Origin: a virus
Length of the DNA: 55,858 nucleotides
IMG/VR virus record: IMGVR_UViG_3300021364_000027
Coordinates: 1-55,858 of that record
Reading direction: 5' to 3' (one strand)
Shown here: positions 2,972 through 29,940 of the stretch, piece by piece
Position numbering within the stretch: the stretch's first letter is position 1
Layout: each line of letters begins with the position of its first letter
Program-made: the position numbers and the translations under genes
Notes under the pieces: generated by a model
Told to the model about the DNA's origin: nothing
Databases searched by the model: none
The model's input: only the letters and a program-made list of their open reading frames with translations

Positions 2972-3633
2972 AATAATTCAAATCTTTTCCAATCGTCAGG
3001 ATAATCAATGTCCAAACTTGCCATCCATGATGATTTGTAGAATCCTATTTTACCCGGTAGTCTATTTCCAGTTTGTACAAAATCTTTGTGCCGACTTACA
3101 AACACTGCTGAATTTATTTCGTACACAGATTCTAGTGTTTGTGTCAACGGCCAATATCCTACAGCATTAGGATCGTAATTCAATGGCTCTCCATCTTTCC
3201 ATAAAAAATTTTTAATTTCATTTGCTGTCGCTACACTATCGTATTCAGAGTCAGCGTAAAATTCTAACAAGTCGTCAATGTCATGTTCAGTAAAGAACGG
3301 TGCTGTAGCAAAAACCATTGCTATGTTATCTGCTGGTATGTTTGTTACTTGTTGAGACAGATGTTTTACCCACACATCTCCCGGACAAGTACCGGCATAC
3401 TGTGTATCTCTTTTGTGTAAATGTACTTTTTTATCTCCAGGAAGTTTTGAAACTATATCTAAAACTTCGTTACTTTCACTACTAACAAATATTTCTGAGA
3501 TGTGTTGACTTTTTTGTAATTGTTCTATTTTTATTTCGGTAATTCCATAAAGATACTTTCCCACTGGACGCAGATTCTTGCGTGGCACTCTTTCGCTGTT
3601 TCCTTTTATAGGTAGTATAGCAAGTGTGTTCAT
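2950..3633 (-). CDS. CMP-sugar synthetase-like cytidylyltransferase
   Basis: A 227-residue nucleotidyltransferase of the acylneuraminate cytidylyltransferase (NeuA/KdsB-like) type. The N-terminus contains the nucleotide-binding loop ILPIKGNSERVPRKNLRPV, and LDIDYPDDW near the C-terminus corresponds to the family's IDID..ED metal-site motif. Family members join CTP to a 9-carbon or 8-carbon acidic sugar to give a CMP-activated donor. The ATG at 3633 is preferred over one six codons upstream because it gives the ATGA overlap with the preceding stop and places the loop at the usual distance from the N-terminus. It sits between radical-SAM genes and suggests that an activated sugar is made by the phage. 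Confidence 0.82.
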   Translation of the reverse strand: MNTLAILPIKGNSERVPRKNLRPVGKYLYGITEIKIEQLQKSQHISEIFVSSESNEVLDIVSKLPGDKKVHLHKRDTQYAGTCPGDVWVKHLSQQVTNIPADNIAMVFATAPFFTEHDIDDLLEFYADSEYDSVATANEIKNFLWKDGEPLNYDPNAVGYWPLTQTLESVYEINSAVFVSRHKDFVQTGNRLPGKIGFYKSSWMASLDIDYPDDWKRFELLWQTYTK

Positions 3634-4757
3634 AATAATTCTTCTGCCCATGGATATGCTGCTAAAAACTCTACATTACATCTATAGTCCCAAATGTCCT
3701 TGCTGTAATGTTGTAGTAGACTGCGTTCAGTTGTACTTATTTGTCTGTGTTCGTACATGGTTTTAGTCTGGAATGTTCTCCAATTAGTATTCACATCAAT
3801 AAATTCTACAGCAGCAAATTGTTTGTAAAATTCTGTTCTAGCATCTAGCGGAATCAATCTAAAGTCCAAGAAACTAGGATAGTCAACTTCATTATAACTT
3901 ACTCTTGCTTGGGGAAACTGATTAGCCCAAGCAAAAAACTCTGGCATGTTGTGATATGTAAGCATACTCACAGCAGGTGTAAGTCCTACCATACAACGGC
4001 TGTTGTACATTCTAACAAAATTGCGTTCAATGGTTTGCCAACGAGCAGGGTACCGCTGATACTCCAATGCTGCTCCTACAGCGTCAATACTACACATTAG
4101 CTCTACATGCCGAAACTTTTCTAATGTTTGTAATATGCGAGTTTTGGCACTGGTACAGTTGGTTATGAATTCTATTTCAAGATCAGTTTTGCCTCGCTCT
4201 ACCAACTTGTACAAAAATTCTTCTACTTCCGGCATGATAAAAGGCTCACCGCCAGCAAATCTCAGCGTTTGTAAGTCTGGTAAATCCAGCACTAAATCCA
4301 GCAAGCGTCCTACATCTGTGTCCACGGTGCTGGGTATGCTACGAAGCAAGTCATTGTCCACACCATTAGCTTTTAATTCCAGTGCTAGGTTTGCTATTTG
4401 GTCACTGAAACCTCCGCTACACATTTTACACTGTAAATTACACTTGTTGCTGAGTCTTAGATCCAAGTGTCTTATGCTTTGATCAGTGCTGCCGTACTGT
4501 TGATTAACTCTGTGGCGTTTGCTTTCTCTGCCGTTGCGTTCGTTGTGCCAGCAACTTTCACATGCTGTGTTTTCTATGCTTGATTCTAAATCTTTGCGTA
4601 CAGTGTTCAGCCATGAATTTGATTTGTACCAAGCATTCATATCGTCAACTGTGTTCCAGTCTACCCTTATGTCACGCTTTTGTATACAGCAATGTCCTAC
4701 TCTGCCTGTGGTGTCTATATTAAAGCCGTTGTTGGTCAGTGTACAAAATTTATTCAT
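3630..4757 (-). CDS. Radical-SAM enzyme, class A (N-terminal SPASM/twitch-like)
   Basis: A 375-residue protein. The N-terminal module has Cys5, Cys23-Cys24 and Cys66-x2-Cys69, spaced like the second half of a SPASM domain. The core has Cys106-x3-Cys110-x2-Cys113 (CNLQCKMC) and FAGGEP at 167-172. The protein ends in AAYPWAEELL, corresponding to the FPELxxL tail of the other class A proteins. Proteins of this build are annotated in phage genomes as twitch-domain radical-SAM proteins; no substrate is established to my knowledge. It overlaps the downstream NeuA-like gene by four bases (ATGA) and the upstream gene by eight. Confidence 0.9.
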   Translation of the reverse strand: MNKFCTLTNNGFNIDTTGRVGHCCIQKRDIRVDWNTVDDMNAWYKSNSWLNTVRKDLESSIENTACESCWHNERNGRESKRHRVNQQYGSTDQSIRHLDLRLSNKCNLQCKMCSGGFSDQIANLALELKANGVDNDLLRSIPSTVDTDVGRLLDLVLDLPDLQTLRFAGGEPFIMPEVEEFLYKLVERGKTDLEIEFITNCTSAKTRILQTLEKFRHVELMCSIDAVGAALEYQRYPARWQTIERNFVRMYNSRCMVGLTPAVSMLTYHNMPEFFAWANQFPQARVSYNEVDYPSFLDFRLIPLDARTEFYKQFAAVEFIDVNTNWRTFQTKTMYEHRQISTTERSLLQHYSKDIWDYRCNVEFLAAYPWAEELL

Positions 4758-5772
4758 AACTGCCCTCTAGCCACAAATCGTTATTCAGTAGTTTTTGATA
4801 TATTGGCTCAAGATCTACTTCTATTGAGGTTCTATCTTTTCGAAAGTTTTGTTGTTTTACTCTACATTTATCAAACACTGTACCAATATCGTCTGTTTTA
4901 TTAATTTCAACACTTGGTCTTATAATTTCTGCGTTCCAACAATTGTGATTGTTTATAAATTCCAACTTTTTTCCAAACTTTAAAAACAATAAATTTTGAA
5001 ATTTAATTTGATTGTCGCCTATTAAGTCGTATAAAGCAAGTTTATCTTTTGTAAACAAATCAAAAAAAGTTTTTTCAACATCAGGAAACCATTGTGATAT
5101 AATATTTTGTTTATGAACATACAGATAATCTGCTATCAACGGCTTACTAAATCTTACACTTAATATATGAGACATAACTTGTGTACTAATATTTTCTAAA
5201 TCGTTAGCACTATAATTTATAATATCTAAACATCTTTGTAAATCACCAGACTGAAAATAAAATAAACAATCTGGTCTTGTTTGTAAAATTAAATCATATT
5301 CGCTGTCTATTAAACTATAACCTCTTGCTGCTCCCCAGTGCTGTGACATAAAATGTAATGCATGTAATCTACGTTTATAATCAAATTTTTTTGAAGATCC
5401 GCCATATAGAAGATTAGGAGCATGTGTATCAATATTTAAAATATTTTTAAAAGTTTTGTCTTTGGCATTTTCTTTTATTATATTATTAACAGTATTCAAA
5501 AATTTACTAGTTCCCTCAATAATATATTTTTTTGGCTTCCAATATTTTAAATAATTTTCATGTATGTAATTTAAATCTTGAATTTCAACATCATATAGAT
5601 TTTGTGGCCTGTTCTTTGCATCTGTAGCATCGCATATCGTTTCTGTGTTTGTGGTATGAATAAAAACATCAAATTGGTGTTGCGGATTTTCGTCAACAAC
5701 AAAGCGTTGAAATAATTCTGATCCTAATTGAGCACATCTAGCTTGTCCTCTTAACACTACAGCAATTTTCAT
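4750..5772 (-). CDS. Putative glycosyltransferase-like protein
   Basis: A 340-residue protein starting MKIAVVLRGQAR, a hydrophobic strand then a small-residue turn, typical of a Rossmann-type nucleotide-sugar domain. It also has FDVFIHTTNT (33-42) and DYDLILQTRPDC around 158-170. This combination recurs in capsule and surface-polysaccharide glycosyltransferase-like proteins, where the second motif replaces a classical DxD. It lies between a FkbM-type methyltransferase and a class A radical-SAM gene, with start-stop overlaps on both sides. The glycosyltransferase call rests on motif resemblance only; a different nucleotide-binding function is possible. Confidence 0.5.
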   Translation of the reverse strand: MKIAVVLRGQARCAQLGSELFQRFVVDENPQHQFDVFIHTTNTETICDATDAKNRPQNLYDVEIQDLNYIHENYLKYWKPKKYIIEGTSKFLNTVNNIIKENAKDKTFKNILNIDTHAPNLLYGGSSKKFDYKRRLHALHFMSQHWGAARGYSLIDSEYDLILQTRPDCLFYFQSGDLQRCLDIINYSANDLENISTQVMSHILSVRFSKPLIADYLYVHKQNIISQWFPDVEKTFFDLFTKDKLALYDLIGDNQIKFQNLLFLKFGKKLEFINNHNCWNAEIIRPSVEINKTDDIGTVFDKCRVKQQNFRKDRTSIEVDLEPIYQKLLNNDLWLEGSYE

Positions 5773-6440
5773 TTTACTATCTCAAACTTGTATCTGTCTA
5801 TTAAAGATTCGTGGCAATAATGTGTTTCATAACTATGAGGACAAAATGGATTAACTACTCTAGTGTAATTTTTTGTTTTTAAATATTCACTTATCTCATC
5901 AACTTCTTCTTCGGCTGTTTCGATACTTATTAATCCAACAACATAGTTATCCCATGGCCATGCTTTTAATATTTCAAATTCACTTCCTTCAGTATCAAGA
6001 GCAAGATAATCAATATTTTTTTTGTATCTATATCTTTGTAATAATCTTGCAGGTGATACACATCTTTTCATCACTGTTTTACCATATTTTTCGTGATATA
6101 TTGCATGATGACTGCGTAAGTGTTTTTGTATACCGCTTAGTGCTTCAGACGCCCATTCAAGTTCTTCTATCCTGCCTTCGCATTCTACAAATTCAATTGT
6201 TCCATCAAAGTTATATACACAAGCATTTAAAGGATTTTTTCTGCTTACATGACACTCTTTGTAGTATTTTGAATTTGGCTCGACAGCTACTCCAAACCAA
6301 TCTAATTTTTTTTCTAAAACATAGCAACTGCTGATTCTATTTCCACTGCAAGCACCTAATTCGACAAAGGATCCGTTGCGTTTATAATCATACACTTCGG
6401 CTACCCATTGATCATTTCTATGTAAACTATTCCATTTCAT
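5769..6440 (-). CDS. FkbM-family SAM-dependent methyltransferase
   Basis: A 223-residue class I methyltransferase. Motif I is FVELGACSGNR (25-35), followed by the acidic loop GVAVEPN and the strongly diagnostic DYLALDTEGSEFEILKA. That last element, with the D-x-E-G-x-E core, typifies FkbM/Methyltransf_21 enzymes, which usually O-methylate sugars or polyketides. It overlaps the downstream glycosyltransferase-like gene and the upstream radical-SAM gene by four bases each, so a role in methylating a phage-directed glycan is reasonable but unproven. Confidence 0.82.
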   Translation of the reverse strand: MKWNSLHRNDQWVAEVYDYKRNGSFVELGACSGNRISSCYVLEKKLDWFGVAVEPNSKYYKECHVSRKNPLNACVYNFDGTIEFVECEGRIEELEWASEALSGIQKHLRSHHAIYHEKYGKTVMKRCVSPARLLQRYRYKKNIDYLALDTEGSEFEILKAWPWDNYVVGLISIETAEEEVDEISEYLKTKNYTRVVNPFCPHSYETHYCHESLIDRYKFEIVK

Positions 6441-14181: not shown

Positions 14182-14849
14182 TGTTTGAATACTACTATAA
14201 CACAGTGCCAGGCAAAGGCCTGTGTAGAAACAATCTTGTATATACAAGCAAGATAGATAGACAAAATAATCTATTTAGTGTGCATTATACAGTAGACCAA
14301 ACCTATCATAAAAATGAGTGTTTACCTCAAGCAGTACTCAACGAAAAATGGCGTAGAGAATTTAAGTATACTTTAGAAGCACCTCACACACTTGACGTTA
14401 AAGAACTTGATAGTATTAAACGTAGAATAATTTTCAATATCCAAGGTGATGATTTTTGGCAACTTGCTGATTGCGACTGGCGTAATTTTGATAAAATACT
14501 GCCAGACTGGCAAGAACAAATGCTTACTATATTACAAGATTATAGAAACAAAGGCATATGGAAATACAGTCTGCATCCAAGCAGTTTTTTTATCATAGAC
14601 GATCAACTAAGAACTGTAAATCATTTCTTTTGCTACAGCGACGACGAACCTGAGGTAAGTATAGAAAGTGTACTTGATCATATTAGCAAAGATAGACAAG
14701 CAAAACTTTTTGAATATTTAGATACTCATGGAATAGATCCAAGAAAAACTTTTTCTTTTAAGTTTTACGGAGGTGTAGTATTGGATAACTTTAACAGTGA
14801 CTATCCTAAAGAATTTATAGAAGCAGCAAAGAAAATTTATCTGGCATAG
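14181..14849 (+). CDS. Unknown protein downstream of the fibre gene
   Basis: A 222-residue protein that starts on the last base of the fibre gene's stop codon (TAATG). I do not recognise a family with confidence. The segment YSLHPSSFFIIDDQLRTVNH loosely resembles the catalytic-loop region of small-molecule kinases (H-D-x-H-x-x-N...D), but the key Asp and Asn are absent, so an inactive kinase-like fold is only a guess. Its 3' end overlaps the convergent oxygenase gene by 35 bases. Coupling to the fibre gene suggests a role in fibre modification or assembly. Confidence 0.5.
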   Translation: MFEYYYNTVPGKGLCRNNLVYTSKIDRQNNLFSVHYTVDQTYHKNECLPQAVLNEKWRREFKYTLEAPHTLDVKELDSIKRRIIFNIQGDDFWQLADCDWRNFDKILPDWQEQMLTILQDYRNKGIWKYSLHPSSFFIIDDQLRTVNHFFCYSDDEPEVSIESVLDHISKDRQAKLFEYLDTHGIDPRKTFSFKFYGGVVLDNFNSDYPKEFIEAAKKIYLA

Positions 14850-15471
14850 CATCACGCAAATGTTGAATCCAAAAAGCATTCGTTTTAAATTTTACACCAG
14901 TTGACGTGATTGCAAAATCGTTCATTGCTCCTCTACTGTTAATTTCATTTAGCAATGGAGAAATATACTTGTCAAAAATAAATCTCGGATTATCTCCTCC
15001 TGCGATAATTTCTACAGCGTCCGTGACCCAGTCAGCTCTCTTTAACAAACATCTAACTACTAATTGATATCTTGGATATTGACCAAAGTTAGCAGCACTG
15101 TGATTACGTCCAGCATCCATTAAATAGTACTTGCCGTCGGGTTTTAAAGGAAACATATGATTGTTGTGTAAATCAAGAAGTGCTGCTGTATCTCCTGATA
15201 AATTCAAATGATATCTGTTGTCAATATCGCTGTGTAGTTGATAGCATGTGCCGCACTCTTGCCTAATAATACGTGCTTCTCCAATGTCTGGTAAGACACT
15301 TAGCAATTCCTCAAACACAGTACCTCGGTAGTGTGGACTTATTTTCCAAGGATCATAGAAAAAATCTCCAGTGGGCATATTAAGCACATTTTTACCTGTC
15401 CAGTCTTTGCACAATTCTGCTGCTTTTTGAATTAATTTTAAGTCTATACTGTAATCAGTGTTGCTAATCAT
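14815..15471 (-). CDS. 2-oxoglutarate/Fe(II) oxygenase, beta-hydroxylase-like
   Basis: A 218-residue protein with the iron-binding facial triad: LHSDIDN gives His80 and Asp82, and GRNHSAANFG gives His124, followed by Arg134 or Arg140 for 2-oxoglutarate. The order and the NHSAxNFG motif are typical of aspartyl/asparaginyl beta-hydroxylase-like dioxygenases. Such enzymes hydroxylate side chains or small molecules. It is a single minus-strand gene between two plus-strand blocks. The element GTTAAATA stands four bases before its ATG. Confidence 0.75.
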   Translation of the reverse strand: MISNTDYSIDLKLIQKAAELCKDWTGKNVLNMPTGDFFYDPWKISPHYRGTVFEELLSVLPDIGEARIIRQECGTCYQLHSDIDNRYHLNLSGDTAALLDLHNNHMFPLKPDGKYYLMDAGRNHSAANFGQYPRYQLVVRCLLKRADWVTDAVEIIAGGDNPRFIFDKYISPLLNEINSRGAMNDFAITSTGVKFKTNAFWIQHLRDAMPDKFSLLLL

Positions 15472-15475
15472 ACAG

Positions 15476-15483
15476 TATTTAAC
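15476..15483 (-). promoter_or_regulatory. Late-type promoter octamer, minus strand
   Basis: GTTAAATA on the minus strand, followed by CTGT and then the ATG at 15471. The octamer shares TAAATA with the T4 late consensus. The same sequence, TTAAATACTGTATG, precedes the start at 33096 on the other strand. Confidence 0.5.
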
Positions 15484-15484
15484 G

Positions 15485-15492
15485 TATAAGTA
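15485..15492 (+). promoter_or_regulatory. Late-type promoter octamer, plus strand
   Basis: TATAAGTA differs from the T4 late consensus TATAAATA at one base and lies five bases before the ATG at 15498. No Shine-Dalgarno sequence fits between them. Confidence 0.45.
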
Positions 15493-15497
15493 TTTGT

Positions 15498-16304
15498 ATG
15501 ATACGTGGTTTCGAAAACTTACCCTACATCGATTTAGATCCTTTTTTAGACATTGAAGGATTCAAAAATTTAAATGCTGAGATTTGTCGAGGCATGGCTC
15601 AAGCAAGACCGTTTGCCAAAGAAGGCACATGGATGCCAGCAGGTTTTGACTTAAAAGACATGAGCTATATTGGCAATTGGAAGCCTGTGTACAAAGCCTT
15701 TGAAGAATACCAAGCACTAGAAGCAGATAATCCTATACGCATAGAAGGCGATAAAATTTTTCCTACAGACTTTACAAACTATGCTGAACGTAATCAATTT
15801 GTTAGATATTTGAAAAGTGCTATGGGCGCACATGATCCGTACATATACTATGTATTACAAGAAGAAGGCACTAATATGAAAGATAGAGGTGCTGAACAAA
15901 GAGCAGCCACAGAAGAAAGTACTTACTTTCCAGGTGTTATGAGTTGGATAGCAGATCTACAGAAAAAATCAATTGTAGAACACGTAGGTAGAGTAATGTT
16001 TTTTGTAAGTGAAGCAAGTAGTAGACCTTTTGAGCATAGAGATTTAGATCCAGAAGTCAAAGACTACACTGATCACAATATTGAATTTATTCATATACGA
16101 CCAAACACCAAGCGTGGCTTTTATATTTGGGATCCAGAGCACAAACGCAAGCATTATGTAAATTCTCATGCTTGTTTTTTCAATGACCAAGACTGGCATG
16201 GTGGTGAATTTTCTATGGAACAAGAATATGGACTGCGTATTGATTGTAAATTTACTCAAGAATTCAAAAAACGCATAGGAATAGGACACTTGACACATTA
16301 CTAA
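15498..16304 (+). CDS. 2-oxoglutarate/Fe(II) oxygenase-like protein
   Basis: A 268-residue protein. RPFEHRDLD (His180, Asp182), FNDQDWHGGE (His234) and GLRIDCKF (Arg247) form a complete H-x-D...H...R set, as in 2-oxoglutarate-dependent dioxygenases. The spacing of about 52 residues between the metal ligands fits the double-stranded beta-helix core. The N-terminal 160 residues match nothing I recognise. It is followed after 18 bases by the QueC-like gene, whose own promoter lies partly inside the 3' end of this gene. The substrate is unknown. Confidence 0.68.
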   Translation: MIRGFENLPYIDLDPFLDIEGFKNLNAEICRGMAQARPFAKEGTWMPAGFDLKDMSYIGNWKPVYKAFEEYQALEADNPIRIEGDKIFPTDFTNYAERNQFVRYLKSAMGAHDPYIYYVLQEEGTNMKDRGAEQRAATEESTYFPGVMSWIADLQKKSIVEHVGRVMFFVSEASSRPFEHRDLDPEVKDYTDHNIEFIHIRPNTKRGFYIWDPEHKRKHYVNSHACFFNDQDWHGGEFSMEQEYGLRIDCKFTQEFKKRIGIGHLTHY

Positions 16305-16317
16305 AATGTGTTATAAT
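16290..16317 (+). promoter_or_regulatory. Sigma70-type promoter for 16323-20191
   Basis: TTGACA (16290-16295), 16-base spacer, TATAAT (16312-16317), a consensus housekeeping promoter. The ATG at 16323 is five bases beyond the -10 box, the same distance as at 12254, so the message is predicted to be leaderless. The -35 box is inside the end of the preceding gene. Confidence 0.83.
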
Positions 16318-16322
16318 TTAAT

Positions 16323-17018
16323 ATGGTAATCGACAGAGTTTACATCCCTCTTAAAAAAGAATGGAAACGTATTGGCATCAGTCTAAGTGGCGGTGCTGAC
16401 AGTGCTTTATTGGCTTACTTTGTGTTGAGCAACACAAATGCTGATATTTACTTTACTACACAGGTGCGTATGTGGAAAACACGCCCCTGGCAACGTTGGA
16501 TTGCTAGAGATGTGGTAAGTTGGTTCCGTGAAAAGTTCCATAATCGCATTGAACACATCGAAGGGTTTATACCACCAGAGATGGAAGAGCCAAACACAAC
16601 ACACATAATAGACGAGTACGGTCAAAGCAAGCCTGGCAATAGAATTATACTGCGAGCACACAATGAATACATTGCACATCTACACAACCTAGATGCATGG
16701 TATGCTGCTGTGACTCTAAATCCTAATGAAAAGTTTGAAGGTGCTCCTGAGGATAGAGAATATGCCAGGCTTCCTGCTGAAACAGAGCATATGGGTGTGA
16801 CAGTATGTCATCCATTCAGTATGGTTCGTAAAAATTGGATTATAAAACAATATGTTGATAACGAAATCGGTGAACTATTAGAAATTACACGTAGTTGTGA
16901 GGGAGAATTTGAAGGGCTAGACTATACAACTTACAAACCTTATCAACCTGTGCCATACTGTAATGAGTGTTTTTGGTGTAAAGAACGTGAATGGGGTATA
17001 GAAAATGCACACAAGTAA
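16323..17018 (+). CDS. QueC-like PP-loop ATPase
   Basis: A 231-residue protein of the N-type ATP pyrophosphatase family. SGGADS (22-27) is the PP-loop that binds ATP. Cys192 and Cys213-x2-Cys216-x2-Cys219 reproduce the zinc site at the C-terminus of QueC (7-cyano-7-deazaguanine synthase). QueC converts carboxydeazaguanine to preQ0, and phage relatives serve in 7-deazaguanine DNA modification. No recognisable QueD, QueE, FolE or DNA transglycosylase is in the window, so the substrate may differ. It leads a plus-strand operon with three radical-SAM genes and overlaps the first of them by 14 bases. Confidence 0.72.
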   Translation: MVIDRVYIPLKKEWKRIGISLSGGADSALLAYFVLSNTNADIYFTTQVRMWKTRPWQRWIARDVVSWFREKFHNRIEHIEGFIPPEMEEPNTTHIIDEYGQSKPGNRIILRAHNEYIAHLHNLDAWYAAVTLNPNEKFEGAPEDREYARLPAETEHMGVTVCHPFSMVRKNWIIKQYVDNEIGELLEITRSCEGEFEGLDYTTYKPYQPVPYCNECFWCKEREWGIENAHK

Positions 17019-18255
17019 AACTTTTTGTTTGCACCCTTTTACAGGTCTTGCTACTAGAGAAGATGGTGCAATCAAAGTGTGCTGTCGTAGTCAGCCTATT
17101 GGTTGGATACAGGATGAAACATTGGAAAGTGCATGGAATAATAAAAACATGCGTAGAGTGCGTGAACAAGTGCTTAACAATGAAATACCAGCAGAATGCG
17201 TACCTTGCTTTGATTTAGAAGCACAAGGCGTAGAAAGTTTAAGGCAAAGACACATACGTGATAGTTTTCCTGATGCACGTATAAACTTGTATCCAGATGC
17301 ATTAGATAAATTAGCAGACGATTATAGTATGCCGTTTGAATTTCCTACTATCGAAATCAAAATAAACAACTTGTGTAATCTTAAATGTCGTATGTGCAAT
17401 CCGTTGGACAGCACACAGTGGAAAGATTGGGAACAAGTAGAACAGTTTTATGAGGAAGAAGGCAATTACTTAGTAGATGCTGTGCGCAAACTAGGACTAA
17501 CACGAGCACCATACATTGGTTTGTTTGAGGATAGTGCAGAGTTTTGGGATAATTTAGAAAAGTTGCTGCCATATTTCCGCAGAGTTGAGTTTGCTGGTGG
17601 TGAGCCACTGATGGATCCTAGTCACTATCGCATTTTAGATATGTTAGCACCATACGGTGAAAACATTGAAATAAAGTATGCTACAAATGGCACTGTGACG
17701 GGTATAAAGGGCGGAAGGACCATACACGACTATTGGCCTAAGTTTAAGAACGTGGTTGTAAATGTAAGCATAGACGGGCTACACGGTGTGTATGAATACA
17801 TTAGAGGCAATGGTAAGTTTGAAGAAGTGGAAGAAAATATCAAAATCTTTAAGAGCTTTCCTAATGTAAAATATGTTGTAGGTGCTTGTACTGTACAAGT
17901 AGGCAATGTTATGCAACTACCGGACATTATAGATTACTTTTTAAATACCATGGGCATTGTATTTTATTCACACAGAGTAAATTATCCAAATGTGTTGAGT
18001 GCTCAATGTTTGCCCGTTGAATACAAAGAAAATGTTATTAACCAATTGACTGCAATGAAAGAAACTGTTGTAAATTATCCAGTAATGAAATTAGATAAAA
18101 GATTGCTTCCTATTACTTTACAACAAATACAAGACAATATTAATTTTTTACAAGCCCGTGATTTAAGCACCAAATGGGCAGATACATTAGCGTTTAATCA
18201 TAAATTAGATGCTAGTAGAAATCAAGGACCATTTGAAAAAATATGTTTAGTGTAG
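17005..18255 (+). CDS. Radical-SAM enzyme, class A
   Basis: A 416-residue protein. N-terminal module: Cys8, Cys26-Cys27, Cys65-x2-Cys68, with ESAWNN and a following arginine-rich stretch as in SPASM domains (EVWNS...LR). The core has Cys124-x3-Cys128-x2-Cys131 (CNLKCRMC) and FAGGEP at 196-201. SIDGLHGVYEYIRG is a conserved class A segment. The C-terminus lacks the FPELxxL tail that marks most class A members. It is the first gene of an A-C-C' cassette that is repeated in inverted orientation at 26364-23050. It overlaps both neighbours by 13-14 bases. Confidence 0.9.
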   Translation: MHTSKTFCLHPFTGLATREDGAIKVCCRSQPIGWIQDETLESAWNNKNMRRVREQVLNNEIPAECVPCFDLEAQGVESLRQRHIRDSFPDARINLYPDALDKLADDYSMPFEFPTIEIKINNLCNLKCRMCNPLDSTQWKDWEQVEQFYEEEGNYLVDAVRKLGLTRAPYIGLFEDSAEFWDNLEKLLPYFRRVEFAGGEPLMDPSHYRILDMLAPYGENIEIKYATNGTVTGIKGGRTIHDYWPKFKNVVVNVSIDGLHGVYEYIRGNGKFEEVEENIKIFKSFPNVKYVVGACTVQVGNVMQLPDIIDYFLNTMGIVFYSHRVNYPNVLSAQCLPVEYKENVINQLTAMKETVVNYPVMKLDKRLLPITLQQIQDNINFLQARDLSTKWADTLAFNHKLDASRNQGPFEKICLV

Positions 18256-19139
18256 AAAACAGATGGCCACACTACAAAGATAGTGTAAAAGTAGAATGGA
18301 ATCTAGGCAAACGTTGTAATCTAGACTGTTCATACTGCCCACCTGAAATACACGACCAACATAGTCCGCACACAAACATAGGAAAACTTTTTAACACTGT
18401 AGATACACTTTCAAAAATTGACAACGTGAGGATTAGTTTTACCGGAGGTGAACCATGTGTACATCCTCAATTCGAACAGCTGGTAGAATATGCTAGACCA
18501 AAAATCAAATGGCTAAGTGTGACTACAAACGCAACAAGAAAGGCAGACTTCTATTTAAATTTGCGTGTCAATTACATTGTTTTTAGTTTACATTTTGAAG
18601 ATGTTGACTGGCGAAGTAGACTTAACAATATAATCTATCTAGCTGGCACACTAAATGGAACAAAATTTCCAAAAGATTATCATGTAATGATAATGGCTCA
18701 TCACGATTATATGAAAGAAGTTAAATTAGCAACAAGATGGCTAATTGAACACAATATTGCTTTTAGTATTAGACGTATACGCTGGACTGAAAGACATGAT
18801 TGGTTTGATGATATGAGATACCAAGCAGAAGATTTGGAGTGGATTAAAAGTACAGATACAACAGCTAAACCAAATACACTTGTAGATAGCAAAGAGTTGC
18901 TACACACAAACGATATACTAAAAAATAATCTCAATAACTTCAAAGGCTGGCAGTGTAGAGCAGGTATAGAAAGTTTAATGATAAATTGGGACGGAGAAGT
19001 ACACAGAGCAACCTGCCGAGTTGGTGGTAGTTTAGGAAATATATACGAAGGTAGTTTTCAAAGGCCAGATATACCAGTAATATGTTCAAGAGAATGGTGT
19101 ACTTGTGCTGCTGATGTAAATATAACAAAATGGAAGTAG
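18243..19139 (+). CDS. Radical-SAM enzyme, class C
   Basis: A 298-residue protein with Cys25-x3-Cys29-x2-Cys32 (CNLDCSYC), TGGEP ending at 71, FKGWQCRAG in the C-terminal third and a final CSREWCTCAAD (Cys281, Cys286, Cys288). The last motif is the class C signature, with Ala replacing the Gly seen in other members. It is the middle gene of the A-C-C' cassette. Superfamily assignment is secure; the substrate is unknown. Confidence 0.9.
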   Translation: MFSVENRWPHYKDSVKVEWNLGKRCNLDCSYCPPEIHDQHSPHTNIGKLFNTVDTLSKIDNVRISFTGGEPCVHPQFEQLVEYARPKIKWLSVTTNATRKADFYLNLRVNYIVFSLHFEDVDWRSRLNNIIYLAGTLNGTKFPKDYHVMIMAHHDYMKEVKLATRWLIEHNIAFSIRRIRWTERHDWFDDMRYQAEDLEWIKSTDTTAKPNTLVDSKELLHTNDILKNNLNNFKGWQCRAGIESLMINWDGEVHRATCRVGGSLGNIYEGSFQRPDIPVICSREWCTCAADVNITKWK

Positions 19140-20191
19140 ATGCGATTAAATTAACCAAGCCTGAACCTATGATGATTACATGGGATATAGGCAGGCGTTG
19201 TAATTTTGACTGTACTTATTGCGAAAGTACAAGACACAATACCTACAGTCCTCCTACTAGTTGGGAAAATTTATGTTCCACACTGGATTTTATAAAACAA
19301 TACACAAGATTATATAATCAACCCAATGCTAACATAGGATTTACAGGAGGTGAGCCAACTGTAAATCCACGATTCTGGGACTTTGTGGAAAAAATTAACA
19401 ACGAAACTGAGTTTCAAGTTGGCATGACCAGCAACGGTACATGGCCAGAAAAGCATATTAACTTTATAAAAGATAATTTTGTAGGTATAACACTGAGTTA
19501 TCATGCTGAAGCAAATCTTTTTAGCAAAGAACGCACCATTGATAACGCTATACTGGTAAAACAAGCAGGAATGTGGCTTACTGTGAATGTAATGATGCAC
19601 ACTGACCACTGGGACGAATGTGTTGAAGTTCACGAAAAACTCAAATCACACGGTATAGACAGCAAACCTACCATGATTGGTGATGGCAACCTTGGTGTCA
19701 CAGATTGGTTTGAGGACACAGAAGGTGTAAAACGTAGAACCAGTCACCCGTATACCAAACAACAACAAGAATGGTATCTACGAGAAAAAGGTTTACCCTC
19801 AGATATAGTGGAAAAAATTGCTGAAGGCTATGAATTACCAAGAGGTTGCTGTGGTGCTAGAAGCATAGAAGGCAGTTGCAATGGCTGTTGGCAAAATGTT
19901 GAAGCAGTGAACACCAACTTCCAAGGATGGTACTGTGCTGTTAATCGTTATTTTCTACATATCGATCAACACACAGAAAAAGTATATCATCATCAAACCT
20001 GTCAAACCAGTTTCAGTGGCAGGAAAGGAGCAATAGGTAGACTCAGCAATCCTGATGGTATACTGAACTATGCTTATGAAAACAGAGATAGAATCATACG
20101 CTGCCCACACAGTAGATGTGGTTGCGGTATGTGTGTGCCCAAAGCTAGGTCACTTGATGTTTTTCGACAAATTGTTGGCTCGGGTTTGTAG
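19130..20191 (+). CDS. Radical-SAM enzyme, class C' (extra Cys-rich segment)
   Basis: A 353-residue protein with Cys24-x3-Cys28-x2-Cys31 (CNFDCTYC) and TGGEP ending at 76. Unlike ordinary class C proteins it has an extra cysteine-rich segment near 240-258 (GCCGARSIEGSCNGCW), then FQGWYCAVN, and a CPHSRCGCGMCVPKAR ending. These could hold one or two auxiliary clusters. The gene at 23050 has the same layout (SCCSKKDLCASGC and CWCGICAPKAR). Its 3' end overlaps the convergent class B gene by 47 bases, so the C-terminal coding region is constrained on both strands. Confidence 0.9.
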   Translation: MEVDAIKLTKPEPMMITWDIGRRCNFDCTYCESTRHNTYSPPTSWENLCSTLDFIKQYTRLYNQPNANIGFTGGEPTVNPRFWDFVEKINNETEFQVGMTSNGTWPEKHINFIKDNFVGITLSYHAEANLFSKERTIDNAILVKQAGMWLTVNVMMHTDHWDECVEVHEKLKSHGIDSKPTMIGDGNLGVTDWFEDTEGVKRRTSHPYTKQQQEWYLREKGLPSDIVEKIAEGYELPRGCCGARSIEGSCNGCWQNVEAVNTNFQGWYCAVNRYFLHIDQHTEKVYHHQTCQTSFSGRKGAIGRLSNPDGILNYAYENRDRIIRCPHSRCGCGMCVPKARSLDVFRQIVGSGL

Positions 20192-21229: not shown

Positions 21230-21979
21230 ATGGATCACACTGAATTTTATCAGCAGTACAAAGATGCCGCAACAGAATTACATCCACTTCCAGATTATGA
21301 TTTAGAAGATCAAGCACGTTGGATTATTTCAGGAAATGGCTATCAATATCTAGAATTAGACTGGATGTTCCCAACCAATAAGTGGCAAAAGGAAAGCAGT
21401 TTTGCTGAACCTTATTATGTAGCACACAGAGACGAAGCCACAGGAGAAGGCACACACCATGGATGGAGTAGTTGTGTACTACACGGTATAGGCGTGGACA
21501 AAACCAATGTATATCAAACATATGGATATGAAACAGAACCTGAATATAGTTGGACAGAACTAGGAGAAAAGTGTAAAAGCATACGCATGTTTTTTGACAC
21601 TGTGTTTCCAGCAGAACGCTTTGCTAGAATACGTTTTATGAGATTAGCACCAGGAGGTTGGATATCACCACACAATGACTTTTCACCTATGGTGACTTCT
21701 GAAAATCTTTTTGACTTTCCAATACCTGTTAACATTGCTGTGGATCATCCCAACGATTGTCACATGACCTTAAAAGATGCTGGTGTAGTTCCTTTTGAGT
21801 CTGGCAAGATGTGTTTGGTAAACATATTCCGTGATCACAGTGTGGTAAACTTCAGTGACCGTCCAAGAATACACATTATCGCCCACTGTTATTTGGGCAA
21901 TCGCAAGAAAGAGTACTGTCAATTAATTGTAGATAGTTATCGTAAACAACATGAACGTATATCCAAGCAAATTCACTGA
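21230..21979 (+). CDS. Aspartyl/asparaginyl beta-hydroxylase-like oxygenase
   Basis: A 249-residue protein. WISPHNDF gives His148 and Asp150, FRDHSVVNFSD gives His203, and RPRIHIIAHC supplies Arg211 or Arg213. These form the iron and 2-oxoglutarate site in the order used by aspartyl/asparaginyl beta-hydroxylases. The segment RLAPGGWISPH is also characteristic (RLxPGxxIxPH). It overlaps the next gene by 29 bases, implying coupled translation. The substrate could be a peptide, a free amino acid or a glycan-linked residue. Confidence 0.78.
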   Translation: MDHTEFYQQYKDAATELHPLPDYDLEDQARWIISGNGYQYLELDWMFPTNKWQKESSFAEPYYVAHRDEATGEGTHHGWSSCVLHGIGVDKTNVYQTYGYETEPEYSWTELGEKCKSIRMFFDTVFPAERFARIRFMRLAPGGWISPHNDFSPMVTSENLFDFPIPVNIAVDHPNDCHMTLKDAGVVPFESGKMCLVNIFRDHSVVNFSDRPRIHIIAHCYLGNRKKEYCQLIVDSYRKQHERISKQIH

Positions 21980-24087: not shown

Positions 24088-24988
24088 GTTCCCTCCACTT
24101 AGTAGTAATTGTTTCGCCGCTGCATGGACATGTATACTTACTACATTTTATAGATTTGATTTCTATATCAGGTAAATCATATATGTTGTAGCCAAGATCA
24201 GTTCCGCAATTGCCACCAACATTCCCTTGTCTATCTATTTTAACAATATCAACACCCAAATTACACTGCCAGCCCTCAAAGTGATTGAGGTTGTTTACCA
24301 CAAAGTAGTTGTCGTCAGTGTGTGTTTCACCGTCTATACTGAATTTGGTTCTTGGCTTGCGTTGAACTTCGGTATACCAATCCATATCAGGATATTGCTT
24401 GATTGGATTACGCACATACTCTAATTGTTCTTCGTTGTAGCGATGTTCGCCGTCATATAAAACAGTCTTTGCAAGCACAGGAAACGGCTTGCAACCGCCT
24501 ACTACAGCGTCTACAAGGCGCTTACAGCGCCCGAAGTGTTCAGGATCCATCAATACGTCAATATTTGTTTCTACACGGTAATCGTATAACAGTTCAGCAA
24601 CTGACTTACAATGGGCAGGATCTCCTGATTCATGATGTAAACTGATATGGACCACATCAAAACAATGCCAGTGTCTTCTCCACCAACTAAGACTTTGACT
24701 AGCATTGGTACTCAAACATATTTTAATATCGTGTGCCATTTTAAGTGTATTACACAGACGTGGCAAGTGTTTCCACAGTGTAGGCTCACCTCCTATCAGA
24801 TACAATCTAGTAGGTCTGTCGTGTTGTTTAATATATTTTAGCAGTGCTGTTTCTAATCGATCTACATCAGGCCAGCGCACTGTGCCTTCATTAGCACCTG
24901 GGAAACAATAGCTACACTTGTAATTACAAGTATTGCCCAAGTCCAATTCAATGACAAAATCTGTATCGTGGTTTTCAATAGATATCAT
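24080..24988 (-). CDS. Radical-SAM enzyme, class C
   Basis: A 302-residue protein with Cys21-x3-Cys25-x2-Cys28 (CNYKCSYC), IGGEPTLW (GGEP 66-69), FEGWQCNLG and a terminal CSKYTCPCSGE. It resembles the gene at 2024 in several places: YxILGGEPTxW against YLIGGEPTLW, and the paired WPDIEQ/WPDVDR segment. It overlaps the upstream class A gene by four bases (ATGA) and the downstream C' gene by eight. It is the middle gene of the second A-C-C' cassette. Confidence 0.9.
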   Translation of the reverse strand: MISIENHDTDFVIELDLGNTCNYKCSYCFPGANEGTVRWPDVDRLETALLKYIKQHDRPTRLYLIGGEPTLWKHLPRLCNTLKMAHDIKICLSTNASQSLSWWRRHWHCFDVVHISLHHESGDPAHCKSVAELLYDYRVETNIDVLMDPEHFGRCKRLVDAVVGGCKPFPVLAKTVLYDGEHRYNEEQLEYVRNPIKQYPDMDWYTEVQRKPRTKFSIDGETHTDDNYFVVNNLNHFEGWQCNLGVDIVKIDRQGNVGGNCGTDLGYNIYDLPDIEIKSIKCSKYTCPCSGETITTKWREHV

Positions 24989-26364
24989 AACAAGTGAGCT
25001 AATTCAGGAAATACATCTTTAGCATTAACTCCTCTAATAGCATCAAGTTTGTTTACATACTCTTTAAATCCTGGCAGCAAATGGCTCTTGTCGTCTGCGT
25101 CCATATGATTCAATATTGCTGCCCATCGTCTCCAACCATAAGGATTTTGTTCCCAAAAGGTAAAATCTGTTGTCCAATTATCTTTCAGGTAGTTTTTGAA
25201 TTTACCAAACAATTCACGTATTTCTGCTTTGTCTTCTTTGGGCAATATTTGTATGCTCAAAAACGTTGGAATGTATAGTAGGTGCATATTTACTAAACCA
25301 CCACCTGCTTTTACACCTCGAATTTCTTCTGTGTTGACTTTTTTGAAATTCTGTGATATTTTCCAATGTATAAAATCTGGCAAATGTTTTATGTTGAAAA
25401 TTTGTATAGCAGTAGCAATACTTGGACGTATGTTGTCTGGTGTATTATCCAGCATGTGTAAGTTGCGCTCTACTGTTTCCCAGTCAGTAGGATAGCGTAT
25501 GTAGTTGTTGCGTGGTCCAGCAGCGTCCATGCTGACACCCACTTTTACTATTTCAAAATGACGCCACAAATCAATTAAATCTTTATCAACCAGTATGCCA
25601 TTTGTATTGTAGCGTAAACGTATACGTTTATTATATCCTTGTCTGACAATTTCTTCGATGAACTTTTTGTGTTCAGCAATCATTAGTGGTTCACCACCAG
25701 CAAAGTATACCTCACGTAAATTGGGTATTTGTTTATATAAGTCGTCCCAGAATATTTCTTGTTCGTGCCACTTGTTATTAAAAGCAGCTTTGTCCCACTG
25801 CATTTGTCTTTTGACTTCTGGATCTTCCAACTGTGGTTCTAATACTTTCCAGTCCTTTACCCACTTGCTGCTGTCATGTGGTGAACACATTACACATTTG
25901 ATATTACAGGTGTGCCCTAATCGTAAATCTAAATATTTTAATTCTTCTTTGTAGTATCCATCTGTGTGTGTTTCGTTTAATAAATCTTGTATATCAAGAC
26001 CACGTTCCATCCACGTTCCTGTTTCCCACACACGTTTGCTTACTACACCTTTTGATTCTTCAGCAAAACATTTACTACAACTTGCAGGTATTTTTCCGTC
26101 CATCATAGTGCGTCTTACACCACGCATGTATTCACTGTTCCATGCTTCCATAGGTGATGTTGTCGCAAAGTTTATATGCTGTCCGCTATCGTCTTTTACA
26201 ATACCTACTGTGTGATCTGTACCTGCTCCGCTGGCGTTAGCACTACAGCACAAACGCATATCTCCATTAGGGCGTGTTGCCATATGTATCCAAGGCAAAG
26301 CGCAAAATGTTTCTGTTGCTTCTGCTTTTAATCTATTATTAAATAAATCTAAAAAATCTTTCAT
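24985..26364 (-). CDS. Radical-SAM enzyme, class A
   Basis: A 459-residue protein. Cys21, Cys39-Cys40 and Cys96-x2-Cys99 form the N-terminal SPASM-like module, with TFCALPWIHMATRPNG and EAWNSEYMRGVR as clear motifs. The core has Cys153-x3-Cys157-x2-Cys160 (CNIKCVMC) and FAGGEP at 221-226. The C-terminal tail is DVFPELAHLL. It begins the minus-strand A-C-C' cassette and overlaps the methyltransferase-like gene upstream by four bases. It keeps the tail that its plus-strand counterpart at 17005 lacks, so the two cassettes are not recent copies. Confidence 0.92.
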   Translation of the reverse strand: MKDFLDLFNNRLKAEATETFCALPWIHMATRPNGDMRLCCSANASGAGTDHTVGIVKDDSGQHINFATTSPMEAWNSEYMRGVRRTMMDGKIPASCSKCFAEESKGVVSKRVWETGTWMERGLDIQDLLNETHTDGYYKEELKYLDLRLGHTCNIKCVMCSPHDSSKWVKDWKVLEPQLEDPEVKRQMQWDKAAFNNKWHEQEIFWDDLYKQIPNLREVYFAGGEPLMIAEHKKFIEEIVRQGYNKRIRLRYNTNGILVDKDLIDLWRHFEIVKVGVSMDAAGPRNNYIRYPTDWETVERNLHMLDNTPDNIRPSIATAIQIFNIKHLPDFIHWKISQNFKKVNTEEIRGVKAGGGLVNMHLLYIPTFLSIQILPKEDKAEIRELFGKFKNYLKDNWTTDFTFWEQNPYGWRRWAAILNHMDADDKSHLLPGFKEYVNKLDAIRGVNAKDVFPELAHLL

Positions 26365-26966
26365 TTGCGCCCAATCAATAAGTATCTATCATACAGCGGA
26401 AGTTTTAGTGTATCTTTGTACATAATATCTCCTAGTCCGCTGTTGTCGGCAAATTGATGTAGACTATCGTAGCACCTTACATGATCAGGCACTTCTTTAT
26501 AATTGTTATTTTGCAGCACAACCAAACAATTATCAGGCACATTGCTCAACCAAAGGTTGTATTGTTCTTGTGTAATATGCTCTGTGCTTGTGTTAATAAC
26601 TACGTCAGGCTCATATTCGTATTTATACTCGCACATGTCTGCTGTAATTGCCGTAAACTTGCCTATCATTTCTTGACTTTTACATATCATGTTTGCTGTT
26701 TCTTCGCAGCTAGGATCAATATCAATGCTGCGTATGTCATTAATATCAAGTCTGCTGTTGAATAGTAAACTACTTAACACTCCGTTCCAGCCACCATGTA
26801 TTACTATGTTTAATGGTTTTATAGGTGTGTAGCCACTTAGTTTTTCAATAAGCCAAACTTTGCTTTTTATTTGACCTTTCCAAAAACTTTCAAGCACTCC
26901 AAAATGATTTTCGCTGTTGCGCACAGCGTCCATCCAAAATGCTACATCGTCCAAGTTTACCAGCAT
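26361..26966 (-). CDS. Methyltransferase-like protein (paralogue of 9746)
   Basis: A 201-residue protein with a probable class I SAM-binding fold: IVIHGGWNGVLSSLLF (motif I), IRSIDIDPSCEE (acidic strand), DVVINTSTEHI (motif IV). It equals the C-terminal two thirds of the gene at 9746, sharing KGQIKSKVWLIE, NTSxEH and the LIGRK ending, and lacks that protein's N-terminal extension. The next gene downstream is a class A radical-SAM enzyme, with a four-base overlap. The activity is inferred. Confidence 0.6.
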   Translation of the reverse strand: MLVNLDDVAFWMDAVRNSENHFGVLESFWKGQIKSKVWLIEKLSGYTPIKPLNIVIHGGWNGVLSSLLFNSRLDINDIRSIDIDPSCEETANMICKSQEMIGKFTAITADMCEYKYEYEPDVVINTSTEHITQEQYNLWLSNVPDNCLVVLQNNNYKEVPDHVRCYDSLHQFADNSGLGDIMYKDTLKLPLYDRYLLIGRK

Positions 26967-28045: not shown

Positions 28046-28982
28046 CCTTAAAATTATGTCTACGTATTTTAAAAGTTATATTATTTAATTCTTCTAATGT
28101 ATAATTTTCATACAAATGTTTAAGTTGATCTATAGCAGCAAACATTCTTTTATCATTACTCATATTGTCATAACTTTCGTCAATGATGCTGTCGAATGTT
28201 TTGAATCCTTTTGTTTTTAAATATTGCAAAGAATGTTTTTGCCCAATTAAAATTAGTATTTGTCCTGCAAACATAGGTTTAATAATCTTTTCAGTAAGAA
28301 ATAAACCTGGTTCATGATAAAATGTTTCAGACGTTAAATTTACTAGGCTATTATAAATTTTTGGATTTAGGTCAAGGGGTTTACTATGTTGTAATCTGTC
28401 ATCTTGCTCAACATAATCTATATGTAAAGGTATTTTGCTTTCTGTATCTTTAATATATTTTGCAACCTTTTCAGGTAATATATCTGGCTCCATACATCTT
28501 TGCGTAAATTGATTTGCACTGGTTTTTTCGATTTCTCTAAAACTAACTTTACCTTTGTCTAATAGTTTTAAATAATTCATATAAACCAAAGATTGACATC
28601 TATGTGAGTGTTGCCTATTGTTTAAAAAACAGAAAAAGTTTTTCTTTTTATATTTAGGAGAGGCATGATTACCACGAAAATGAGTTGCAAAAGTTTTAAA
28701 ATGAATATTATAAACTTTAACAGAATAAAGTTTTGGCTTAGATGTTTGTTTTAACCATTTTTTATATAAACTTTCAACATGAAAATTACCGCTCAAATAA
28801 ACAAGTCTACATTTCATATTGTATTTTTTATAAAATACGTGCAAATTTAAAAAATGATTCCAACAGTCTCCTTCGCTATTATTATCAACTACAACTGTAC
28901 TCTTAGGATTCTTAACAGCTCTCAAATATTTACTAGGAAGAATTAAAGGCTCGTGATAATTTAGGTCAATATGCTCTGCCAA
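28023..28982 (-). CDS. Glycosyltransferase-like protein, LNNR family
   Basis: A 319-residue paralogue of the gene downstream. It keeps FFCFLNNRQHSHRCQS, NLTSETFYHE, FLTEKIIKPMFAGQ and YLKTKGFKTFDSIIDESYD, in the same order. The C-terminal LEELNNITFKIRRHNF is nearly the same as VEELNSITLEIRKHNF in that neighbour. This adjacency suggests a tandem duplication. The N-terminal domain differs more, as expected if it binds the acceptor. Confidence 0.5.
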   Translation of the reverse strand: MAEHIDLNYHEPLILPSKYLRAVKNPKSTVVVDNNSEGDCWNHFLNLHVFYKKYNMKCRLVYLSGNFHVESLYKKWLKQTSKPKLYSVKVYNIHFKTFATHFRGNHASPKYKKKNFFCFLNNRQHSHRCQSLVYMNYLKLLDKGKVSFREIEKTSANQFTQRCMEPDILPEKVAKYIKDTESKIPLHIDYVEQDDRLQHSKPLDLNPKIYNSLVNLTSETFYHEPGLFLTEKIIKPMFAGQILILIGQKHSLQYLKTKGFKTFDSIIDESYDNMSNDKRMFAAIDQLKHLYENYTLEELNNITFKIRRHNFKVAERVFK

Positions 28983-29872
28983 TGATGGATTGTCCTTTCA
29001 ATACCTTCTTCATAAGATACTTTAGGTGTCCATCCTGTTTTACTTGTAAGCAAGTTGTGATTACTGTTGAGCCACCAAATTTCACCATGACGTGGATCTT
29101 TTGTATCCCAATTTATTTGTCCTGTCCAATCTAATTGTTCAGCAATGTAATCTGCACAATGTCTAATTTTTCTTGGATCGTCTGGTCCAATTGTATAGAA
29201 GTTTCCTTTACATGCATCTCTATTTTCAATAACTGCCATCCATGCATCTAACAAATCACTAATGTAAATAAAGTTTCTATATGGTTCTGCATATCCTAAA
29301 TTACAAGTATCTCCTTTGATCATTTGCGCAATAATTTGTTCTGTCACAAAAAAGTCATTGTCTTTACGTCCATAACTATTTGTTTGTCTAAAACTTGCCC
29401 AAGGCAACCCGTATGCTCTACCAGCATATTCTAAATATTTTTCACAACCATACTTAGCAACAGCATAAGGAGCATTTGGATTTGGCTGCGTATGTTCATC
29501 AAAAGCAACGCTTTCTTTATAAGTTCCGGTTTGTTCTACTTCATCTGAAATGGGTTGCCAGCCATAAACTTCCATAGTGCTTGCGAATACAAAATAAGGT
29601 AATGTGCTAAGTTGTCTACATGCTTCGATAAGATTTACTGTTCCTACATAATTTACTTCACTGAAACTTACTTGTTCATAAAAACTCTTTTGTACTTCAG
29701 TTCTAGCAGCAAGGTGAACAACAATGTCAGGGTTCACTGCTTTTACTTCTTGTTGAATACCTGTATGGTGTGTCAAGTCTGTTTTAAGTTCATGGACTTC
29801 TCCAATTGCTTGTAATCGTGGCAACAAGTGTTGTCCAATAAATCCGCTAGATCCAGTTAGTAATATTTTCAT
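28961..29872 (-). CDS. NAD-dependent epimerase/dehydratase (extended SDR)
   Basis: A 303-residue protein with the dinucleotide loop GSSGFIG (7-13), HLAA at 53-56, Ser98-Thr99, and the catalytic Tyr136-x3-Lys140. This is the full set for an extended short-chain dehydrogenase acting on a nucleotide sugar, for example a 4,6-dehydratase or 4-epimerase. The start at 29872 is chosen over one ten codons upstream because AAGGAG stands five to seven bases before it and the Rossmann loop then falls at the N-terminus. It leads a minus-strand run that goes on to two glycosyltransferase-like genes, a methyltransferase-like gene and three radical-SAM genes. Confidence 0.88.
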   Translation of the reverse strand: MKILLTGSSGFIGQHLLPRLQAIGEVHELKTDLTHHTGIQQEVKAVNPDIVVHLAARTEVQKSFYEQVSFSEVNYVGTVNLIEACRQLSTLPYFVFASTMEVYGWQPISDEVEQTGTYKESVAFDEHTQPNPNAPYAVAKYGCEKYLEYAGRAYGLPWASFRQTNSYGRKDNDFFVTEQIIAQMIKGDTCNLGYAEPYRNFIYISDLLDAWMAVIENRDACKGNFYTIGPDDPRKIRHCADYIAEQLDWTGQINWDTKDPRHGEIWWLNSNHNLLTSKTGWTPKVSYEEGIERTIHHWQSILT

Positions 29873-29878
29873 GTAAAA

Positions 29879-29896
29879 CTCCTTACTATATTTACA
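29879..29896 (-). promoter_or_regulatory. Late-type promoter and RBS for 29872
   Basis: TGTAAATA (29896-29889 on the minus strand) is one base from TATAAATA. AAGGAG (29884-29879) is a strong Shine-Dalgarno sequence. This junction thus has a conventional short leader, unlike the plus-strand gene on the other side. Confidence 0.55.
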
Positions 29897-29928
29897 ATCC
29901 ATTAAGTATATGTTTATTAGATCTGGTG

Positions 29929-29936
29929 GTTAAATA
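29929..29936 (+). promoter_or_regulatory. Late-type promoter octamer, plus strand
   Basis: GTTAAATA followed by CATT and the ATG at 29941. The fixed four-base spacing supports this ATG over an in-frame GTG at 29926, which would lie upstream of the element. Confidence 0.5.
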
Positions 29937-29940
29937 CATT

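Follow-up and report, generated by a model that had tools for sequence, protein, structure and literature searches.

PP-loop enzymes use ATP to turn a carboxyl or carbonyl oxygen into an adenylate, which is then attacked by an amine. Both QueC (PF06508) and Cap9 of type IV CBASS are described as adenylate-forming enzymes with attack by an amine in the available part of PMC13279940. The same partial text assigns two roles within the motif that binds CDG (7-carboxy-7-deazaguanine): a tyrosine stacks on the nucleobase, and an aspartate reads the base edge. QatC, from the qatABCD system, lacks both residues and is nevertheless proposed there to modify protein. Among phages, CmoY of Synechococcus phage S-B43 is an ATP-dependent amide ligase of the asparagine-synthetase type that acts on 5-carboxymethylcytosine in DNA, and an adenylate has been proposed for it (PMC12783734, accessible sections). 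Stenotrophomonas phage Moby carries a QueC of the family phrog_1550 and encodes FolE, QueC, TGT and QueE within ∼6 kb, among replication genes. Radical-SAM (rSAM) cassettes have been reported together with LPS genes near the tail fibres, in the host-recognition cluster of pelagimyophages (PMC7029224), and 12 rSAM genes are on record for one T4-like genome of marine origin (PMC5332604), both as given in the portions of these papers at hand.

The window analyzed here is an entire IMG/VR record of 55,858 bases, which is classed as linear and, like many such records, may be a fragment. Its genes are referred to below by their first coordinate, and the features under discussion are collected in Table 1. 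In the preliminary description the QueC-like gene leads an operon of three rSAM genes. It shares 14 bases with the 17005 rSAM gene, and by coordinates each of the four genes overlaps the next by 10–14 bases, making the operon a tight one.

Table 1. Features of the window, with coordinates, strand and the basis of each assignment.
Feature	Position	Strand	Basis
QueC-like PP-loop protein, 231 aa, ATG start	16323..17018	+	ORF, fold model, family profiles
PP-loop SGGADS, residues 22-27	16386..16403	+	sequence; kept in 46/46
Zinc-site cysteines C192, C213, C216, C219 = C(x)20CxxCxxC	16896..16979	+	sequence, alignment
Twitch/SPASM rSAM, constant neighbour	17005..18255	+	NCBIfam NF033640, 315.5 bits, cut-off 170
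Second constant rSAM	18243..19139	+	PF04055, 44 bits
Third rSAM of operon, less constant	19130..20191	+	PF04055, 56.7 bits; neighbour table
Possible 2-oxoglutarate oxygenase, upstream gene, opposite strand	14815..15471	-	by eye; no Pfam, PHROG or NCBIfam match
Possible 2-oxoglutarate oxygenase, upstream gene, same strand	15498..16304	+	by eye; no Pfam, PHROG or NCBIfam match
Asp/Asn beta-hydroxylase family	21230..21979	+	PF05118, 37.6 bits
Partner of the 21230 gene in the pair found upstream of the rSAM pair	21951-23108
Third constant rSAM (SPASM/twitch)	24985..26364	-	PF04055, 46.5 bits; PF13186, 24.8 bits
Methyltransferase-like; paralogue at 9746	26361..26966	-	by eye; no Pfam match
Cytidylyltransferase, sugar-activating type	2950..3651	-	PF02348, 35.8 bits
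FkbM methyltransferase	5769..6440	-	PF05050, 51.8 bits
NAD-dependent epimerase/dehydratase, sugar type	28961..29902	-	PF01370, 128.8 bits
DegT/DnrJ-type aminotransferase, short	29926..30528	+	PF01041, 61.6 bits
Tail-fibre-like genes	12328-14181 and 45-55.7 kb		by eye

At the level of sequence profiles, the likeness of this family to QueC appears weak yet genuine. The window protein itself had no match in Pfam; it matched the "QueC-like" family phrog_1550 of PHROGs (6.4e-8) over its C-terminal third, and QueC in PADLOC at 0.077. Its IMG/VR relatives are 52–94% identical (best 80 of 196), and from these 80 a family set of 46 distinct sequences, including the window protein, was drawn. Among the other 45 members, 35 matched PF06508 at E≤0.01, and all matched phrog_1550, with a best value of 4.6e-12. 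Solved structures searched by sequence with the family profile gave nothing at E≤1.

The AlphaFold2 model of the QueC-like protein, built with 45 sequences, reached a pLDDT of 91.4 and a pTM of 0.90. In VIA-align its best match was QueC of B. subtilis (3bl5; Z 15.4, rmsd 3.1, 176 residues), followed by Cap9 (14.4), MesJ/TilS (14.4), QueC 2PG3 (14.1), LarE (13.8) and, lower down, QatC (12.9); the likeness to QueC extends over residues 14–231. The predicted fold alone barely separates QueC from TilS (a lead of 1.0 in Z, with the next rows tied), and QueC was chosen over TilS because the sequence profiles match the C-terminal CxxCxxC region to QueC. Foldseek placed Cap9 (9NTO) first in the PDB at E 7e-6, and against viral models phage proteins named 7-cyano-7-deazaguanine synthase ranked high. 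The features of the QueC superfamily, i.e., the QueC fold (as predicted), SGGxDS and a C-terminal CxxCxxC, are all found in the protein; the PP-loop and four zinc-site cysteines previously likened to QueC are thus present as described, on a modelled QueC fold. On these grounds the window protein is, as far as model and motifs indicate, a divergent PP-loop enzyme of the QueC superfamily and a new viral variant.

Conservation within the family is pronounced around these elements. SGGADS, C192 and C213 occur in 46 of 46 sequences, and C216 and C219 in 45, the exception being a gap. Equally invariant are R49, W51, K52, R54-P55-W56, N133-P134, R145, H163-P164-F165, K170 and T189-R190-S191-C192-E193, as is the motif PF(x)4K, while R222 is present in 45 (one gap). 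The subfamily signature reads RxWKTRPW, NP, PF(x)4K, TRSCE and C(x)20CxxCxxCxER.W.

In contrast to QueC, the window protein lacks both YxQxHxxE and YPDC, and its first cysteine spacing is C(x)20C. Alignment by hhalign to seven QueC sequences covered residues 118–230 (probability 89.9) and laid the GYPDCR of QueC on residues 140–145, which read GAPEDR in the window protein, YPDC itself falling on residues 141–144. At residue 141, the position of the base-stacking Tyr, the family carries A, K, G, E, Q, S or R and an aromatic residue in 0 of 46 (the looser 72-sequence alignment described below has one W and one H). Residue 143, the position of the base-edge Asp, is D in 8 of 46 and E in 16, hence acidic in 24, the window protein having E; the Asp contact with CDG would be lost only partly. 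In place of YxQxHxxE stands the Trp/Arg-rich region TTQVRMWKTRPW, located in the N-terminal half by the order of elements, outside the residues aligned by hhalign, and the VPxRN region corresponds by eye to xGNR, with GNR in 44 of 46. Measured against the signatures in the available text of PMC13329287, the window protein is, by its sequence, no canonical QueC. The motif CxxC(x)6CxC, which that text gives for N-acetyl sugar amidotransferase (WbpG), is also absent, the only cysteines of the window protein being 162, 192, 213, 216 and 219.

The two relatives of QueC with roles in defence systems share other features with the window family. The motifs CE and PF(x)4K are common to Cap9 (PMC13329287, in the part seen) and the family; unlike Cap9, the family has no CDG-stacking Tyr and mostly no Asp (residues as identified in the accessible text of PMC13279940), and a PADLOC scan of the protein and eight window neighbours detected no CD-NTase, the partner with an N-terminal Gly that adjoins Cap9. 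Similarly, QatC (9Y01) has in common with the window protein the QueC core, an HP motif, a long first cysteine spacing and an altered CDG motif. It differs in its length of ∼400 aa, with N- and C-terminal extensions that the window protein lacks, and in the same scan none of the eight neighbours was a Qat partner. In view of the proposal made for QatC, the window protein may have a related substrate even with the motif lost.

The window record contained no match to QueD, FolE or TGT, in agreement with the preliminary description, which had suggested that FolE, QueD, QueE and DpdA-type genes be sought in the rest of the genome. This search was carried out on 20 records, possibly incomplete, namely the window and 19 long relatives picked out of the 80 loci. 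FolE (PF01227) was found in 7 of the 20, all of them relatives, with a QueE homologue adjacent in the same seven; these include five of the six records over 113 kb. QueD (PF01242) was matched in none (control, 9 of 14), nor was TGT (PF01702; cellular control, 14 of 14), although a divergent DpdA could be missed. The TGT of Moby was likewise found in 0 of 6 relatives in a search run without a positive control; in another comparison phmmer gave no match, and blastp a single one (E 0.007) to an ORF of 4581 aa. The suggestion that further pathway genes lie outside the window held for FolE and QueE, QueD and the TGT family being found in none of the 20 records, and a full preQ0 set in the relatives was rejected, as only FolE–QueE was found.

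QueE of contig G001, which adjoins FolE, matched phrog_2076 at 175 bits. The relatives' QueE has CNFRCMNFG near the start and CDT much later, in place of CX14CX2C. It had been claimed that no rSAM protein of the window carries the QueE-type CX14CX2C; this is true of all 18 window ORFs with CX3CX2C, but the motif is an unreliable rule, given its absence from the relatives' QueE. The QueE homologue at G003:20566-21459 contains one in-frame TGA.

Four matches resulted from a search of the 20 records with PF06508. Those in G009 (over the cut-off, with neighbours in frame) and G017 (below it) are members of the viral QueC-like family, and a third, G014:6018, fell below the cut-off. The fourth, G001:57416, was over the cut-off at 23.2 bits, covers profile positions 3–74 only, and by eye resembles an asparagine-synthase-like PP-loop protein. 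In this region (G001:57260-58679, locus L095) a SET-domain-like protein, again judged by eye, comes after the asparagine-synthase-like PP-loop protein.

It is highly unlikely that the protein is simply a drifted QueC making ordinary preQ0 with phage FolE–QueE and host QueD and TGT, so as to boost queuosine or modify DNA. FolE–QueE in relatives would fit such a role, and phages with preQ0 genes and no DpdA do exist, those of Campylobacter having modified DNA (PMC6884629, available part). Against it stand the missing YxQxHxxE and YPDC, the sequence xGNR at what is by eye the VPxRN region, and the lack of matches to QueD and to the TGT family in all 20 records. Moreover, the gene lies beside rSAM genes, 47 kb (G001) and 34 kb (G002) from FolE in the two longest contigs, unlike the compact cluster of Moby, whose QueC had no phmmer match (E≤1) to the ORFs of either contig.

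FolE–QueE in the same genomes, with host QueD, could supply CDG, and the enzyme might then attach CDG to a protein or glycan. Such deazaguanylation is very unlikely, even though FolE and QueE are adjacent in the records noted above, the motifs shared with Cap9 are in place (PMC13329287, in part), position 143 is acidic in about half of the family, and the only other PF06508 match over the cut-off in the 20 records is the partial, different PP-loop gene of G001. The stacking Tyr is gone throughout the family, however, and a relative of 91.8 kb (G020) has FolE–QueE and rSAM arrays reaching window-like tail-type genes but no QueC-like match, so that FolE–QueE and the QueC-like gene are separable. 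QueE is in addition a common phage gene, since its relatives occur in 134 isolate records. Among 12 other QueE-bearing contigs, most of them fragments, QueC-like genes were found in two.

The constant partners of the gene are rSAM enzymes. Neighbours were compared in the best 80 loci of longer match lists; these loci are related, and the counts that follow are not independent events. In all 45 distinct loci that could be tested, best-hit relatives of both the 17005 twitch rSAM and the 18243 rSAM are among the four genes that follow the QueC-like gene, and in all 42 testable for the 24985-type rSAM its best-hit relative lies no more than 11 genes downstream. Of 42 testable loci, 32 had the 26361-type protein or its paralogue, and the 14815-type gene was one of the three genes preceding the QueC-like gene in 34 of 38. 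Common descent may explain part of this gene order.

A scan starting from the twitch rSAM returned 350 relatives, the best 80 of which gave 57 loci with a QueC-like gene, 22 without and one untestable. Among 47 distinct twitch rSAMs (three untestable), 32 of 44 loci contained the QueC-like gene and 12 did not (flanks of up to 5 kb), and the 18243-type gene followed the twitch rSAM in all 38 testable loci. In 24 of the 44 there was no QueC-like gene in the two genes upstream, and the 21230/21951 pair was located there in 19 of these 24. Not every rSAM pair is accompanied by the QueC-like gene, which thus has the look of an optional element beside the rSAM genes. Pairwise distances of the QueC-like proteins correlate only moderately with those of the rSAM partners (r 0.52 and 0.56), as against 0.71 between the two rSAMs.

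In the wider family described below (best 80 of at least 468), an rSAM gene was immediately adjacent to 55 of 66 testable QueC-like members, compared with 101 of the 332 remaining non-rSAM ORFs (≥150 aa) of these loci; the Fisher p of 1e-15 assumes independence of loci that are related and is not leaned on. By a looser measure all 66 had an rSAM no more than three genes away, but this was not used as evidence, since rSAM matches make up 419 of the 949 ORFs there.

The rSAM partners could instead serve, together with the QueC-like ligase, to modify the side chain or N-terminus of a host protein or of a phage one, for instance a tail fibre. This is unlikely. The model of the twitch rSAM does resemble the peptide maturases SkfB, anSME and PqqE, among others, Cap9 of the same fold is a protein ligase (PMC13279940, in its accessible part), and tail-fibre-like genes are present in the window. 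Yet MoaA and BlsE match the model equally well, and the function of the rSAM was not deduced from its fold, the model being moderate (pLDDT 75.1) and its matches tied and functionally mixed. A precursor of RiPP type was sought, and no extra small ORF was found in 14000-20500. Proteins starting with Met-Gly, the substrate type of Cap9/QatB, include a family of ∼200-aa ORFs (MGTFYI or similar) in loci L039, L059, L066, L071 and L073, which would suit a protein target; most loci, however, have no Met-Gly family, and few ORFs otherwise begin in this way (12 distinct ones in the 80 loci plus the window). Apart from relatives of the window genes, the family in these five loci is the only recurrent one that starts with Met-Gly.

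The window has 18 ORFs with CX3CX2C, many of which resemble one another; for 15 of them PF04055 gives a match at E≤0.001 (for 12, one that exceeds the cut-off), the ORFs 2024 and 24080 match rSAM PHROGs, and one further ORF is cut by the window edge. The sugar genes listed in Table 1, together with the marine phage precedents, support by analogy a putative role of the cassette in surface modification. No tRNAs were found in the window or in two long relatives. We read these phages as probably T4-like from their core proteins; G001 and Sinorhizobium phage Phosso share 48.6% identity in their DNA polymerases. In Vibrio phage K566 (L375 5705-10107), the window twitch rSAM matched three annotated rSAM genes within 4.4 kb, with a PagP lipid A gene ∼6 kb beyond the trio. 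This phage is a possible candidate for a laboratory model.

Hypermodification of DNA, in which the enzyme would ligate an amine to a carboxylated base, is most improbable. Its precedent is CmoY (PMC12783734, accessible sections), which by description is likewise a phage ATP-dependent amide ligase acting on a carboxylate; it differs in its asparagine-synthetase type and its DNA-base substrate. CmoA, a possible source of such a carboxylate, was matched in 0 of 20 records (the control matched 9 of 14 genomes, over the cut-off in only one), and the gene lies beside rSAM and tail-type genes, away from FolE–QueE. It would be equally far-fetched to propose that T4-like environmental phages own a nucleobase-conjugation chemistry akin to CBASS, and perhaps Qat, in which FolE–QueE help to provide CDG, and tail fibres or surface glycans receive CDG, as such or edited by radical chemistry, from the viral QueC and its rSAM partners.

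In terms of distribution, the subfamily defined by the signature was absent from 50,697 phage records. Isolated phages had no relative of the window protein at E≤1e-3, nor of two divergent members at E≤1e-2. Among GTDB genomes (84,980 species, scanned with two peptide seeds) a single homologue was detected, L111, which is 31% identical. Its contig, filed under Muricauda sp. TMED12, carries tail-fibre-like YTGYYAG repeats and rSAM genes alongside the QueC-like gene, and because of these repeats and rSAM genes it is probably a phage contig; a small copper-protein-like ORF was seen by eye at 3069-3491.

The two QueE-bearing contigs with QueC-like genes, G029 and G030, carry divergent QueC-like genes in pairs. 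In locus L202 (7109-10134) two divergent QueC-like genes have one rSAM gene between them, and in L203 (9568-11126) two stand side by side; this pairing suggests two different ligation steps. A profile built from the four G029/G030 proteins, the window protein, L111 and four relatives retrieved at least 468 viral relatives. From the best 80, an alignment of 72 sequences was prepared (the window protein and 71 others, distinct at less than 90% identity). D26, S27 and K170 are present in all 72, SGGxDS and each of C192, C216 and C219 in 71, P134 in 70, and R145 and C213 in 69. The viral QueC branch was not found named in the literature, no title among the matches listed being recognised as describing the gene.

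We consider it very probable, judging from model and motifs, that the QueC-like protein is an ATP-dependent enzyme that does not make preQ0. The preliminary description had raised the activation of a carboxylate in a different pathway, and this reading is preferred on three counts: the family has lost the base-stacking Tyr, its constant partners are rSAM enzymes, and FolE–QueE occurs in a relative lacking the QueC-like gene. The enzyme would use ATP to adenylate a carboxylate, and coupling to an amine or ammonia would then yield an amide or nitrile; CmoY offers a precedent for an ATP-dependent amide ligase in a phage, although no carboxylate source of CmoA type was matched in the 20 records (with the weak control given above). 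The substrate would probably not be CDG, and the carboxylate may be made or carried by the neighbouring rSAM pathway, to whose conserved pair the QueC-like step would be an optional addition. The target of the cassette would most likely be a surface glycan or sugar precursor, judging by the company of sugar genes; tail-fibre-like genes are equally close. Taken as a whole, this reading, a ligase of amide or nitrile type for a carboxylate other than CDG, optional to the rSAM pair of a glycan-modifying cassette, is given a probability of about 0.5. The intact ATP loop, the zinc-site cysteines, the invariant lysine, the changed substrate motif and the constant rSAM company support it.

QueC scaffolds are now known for roles beyond preQ0 synthesis, and the present family adds a large viral QueC branch with its own residue signature and fixed rSAM partners. 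Where viral "queC" genes are counted by family match, members of this branch may be included along with genuine preQ0 genes. The rSAM arrays of marine T4-like phages, as described in the available parts of PMC5332604 and PMC7029224, gain a tractable point of entry in a single enzyme that is predicted to use ATP and to form an activated carboxylate open to trapping.
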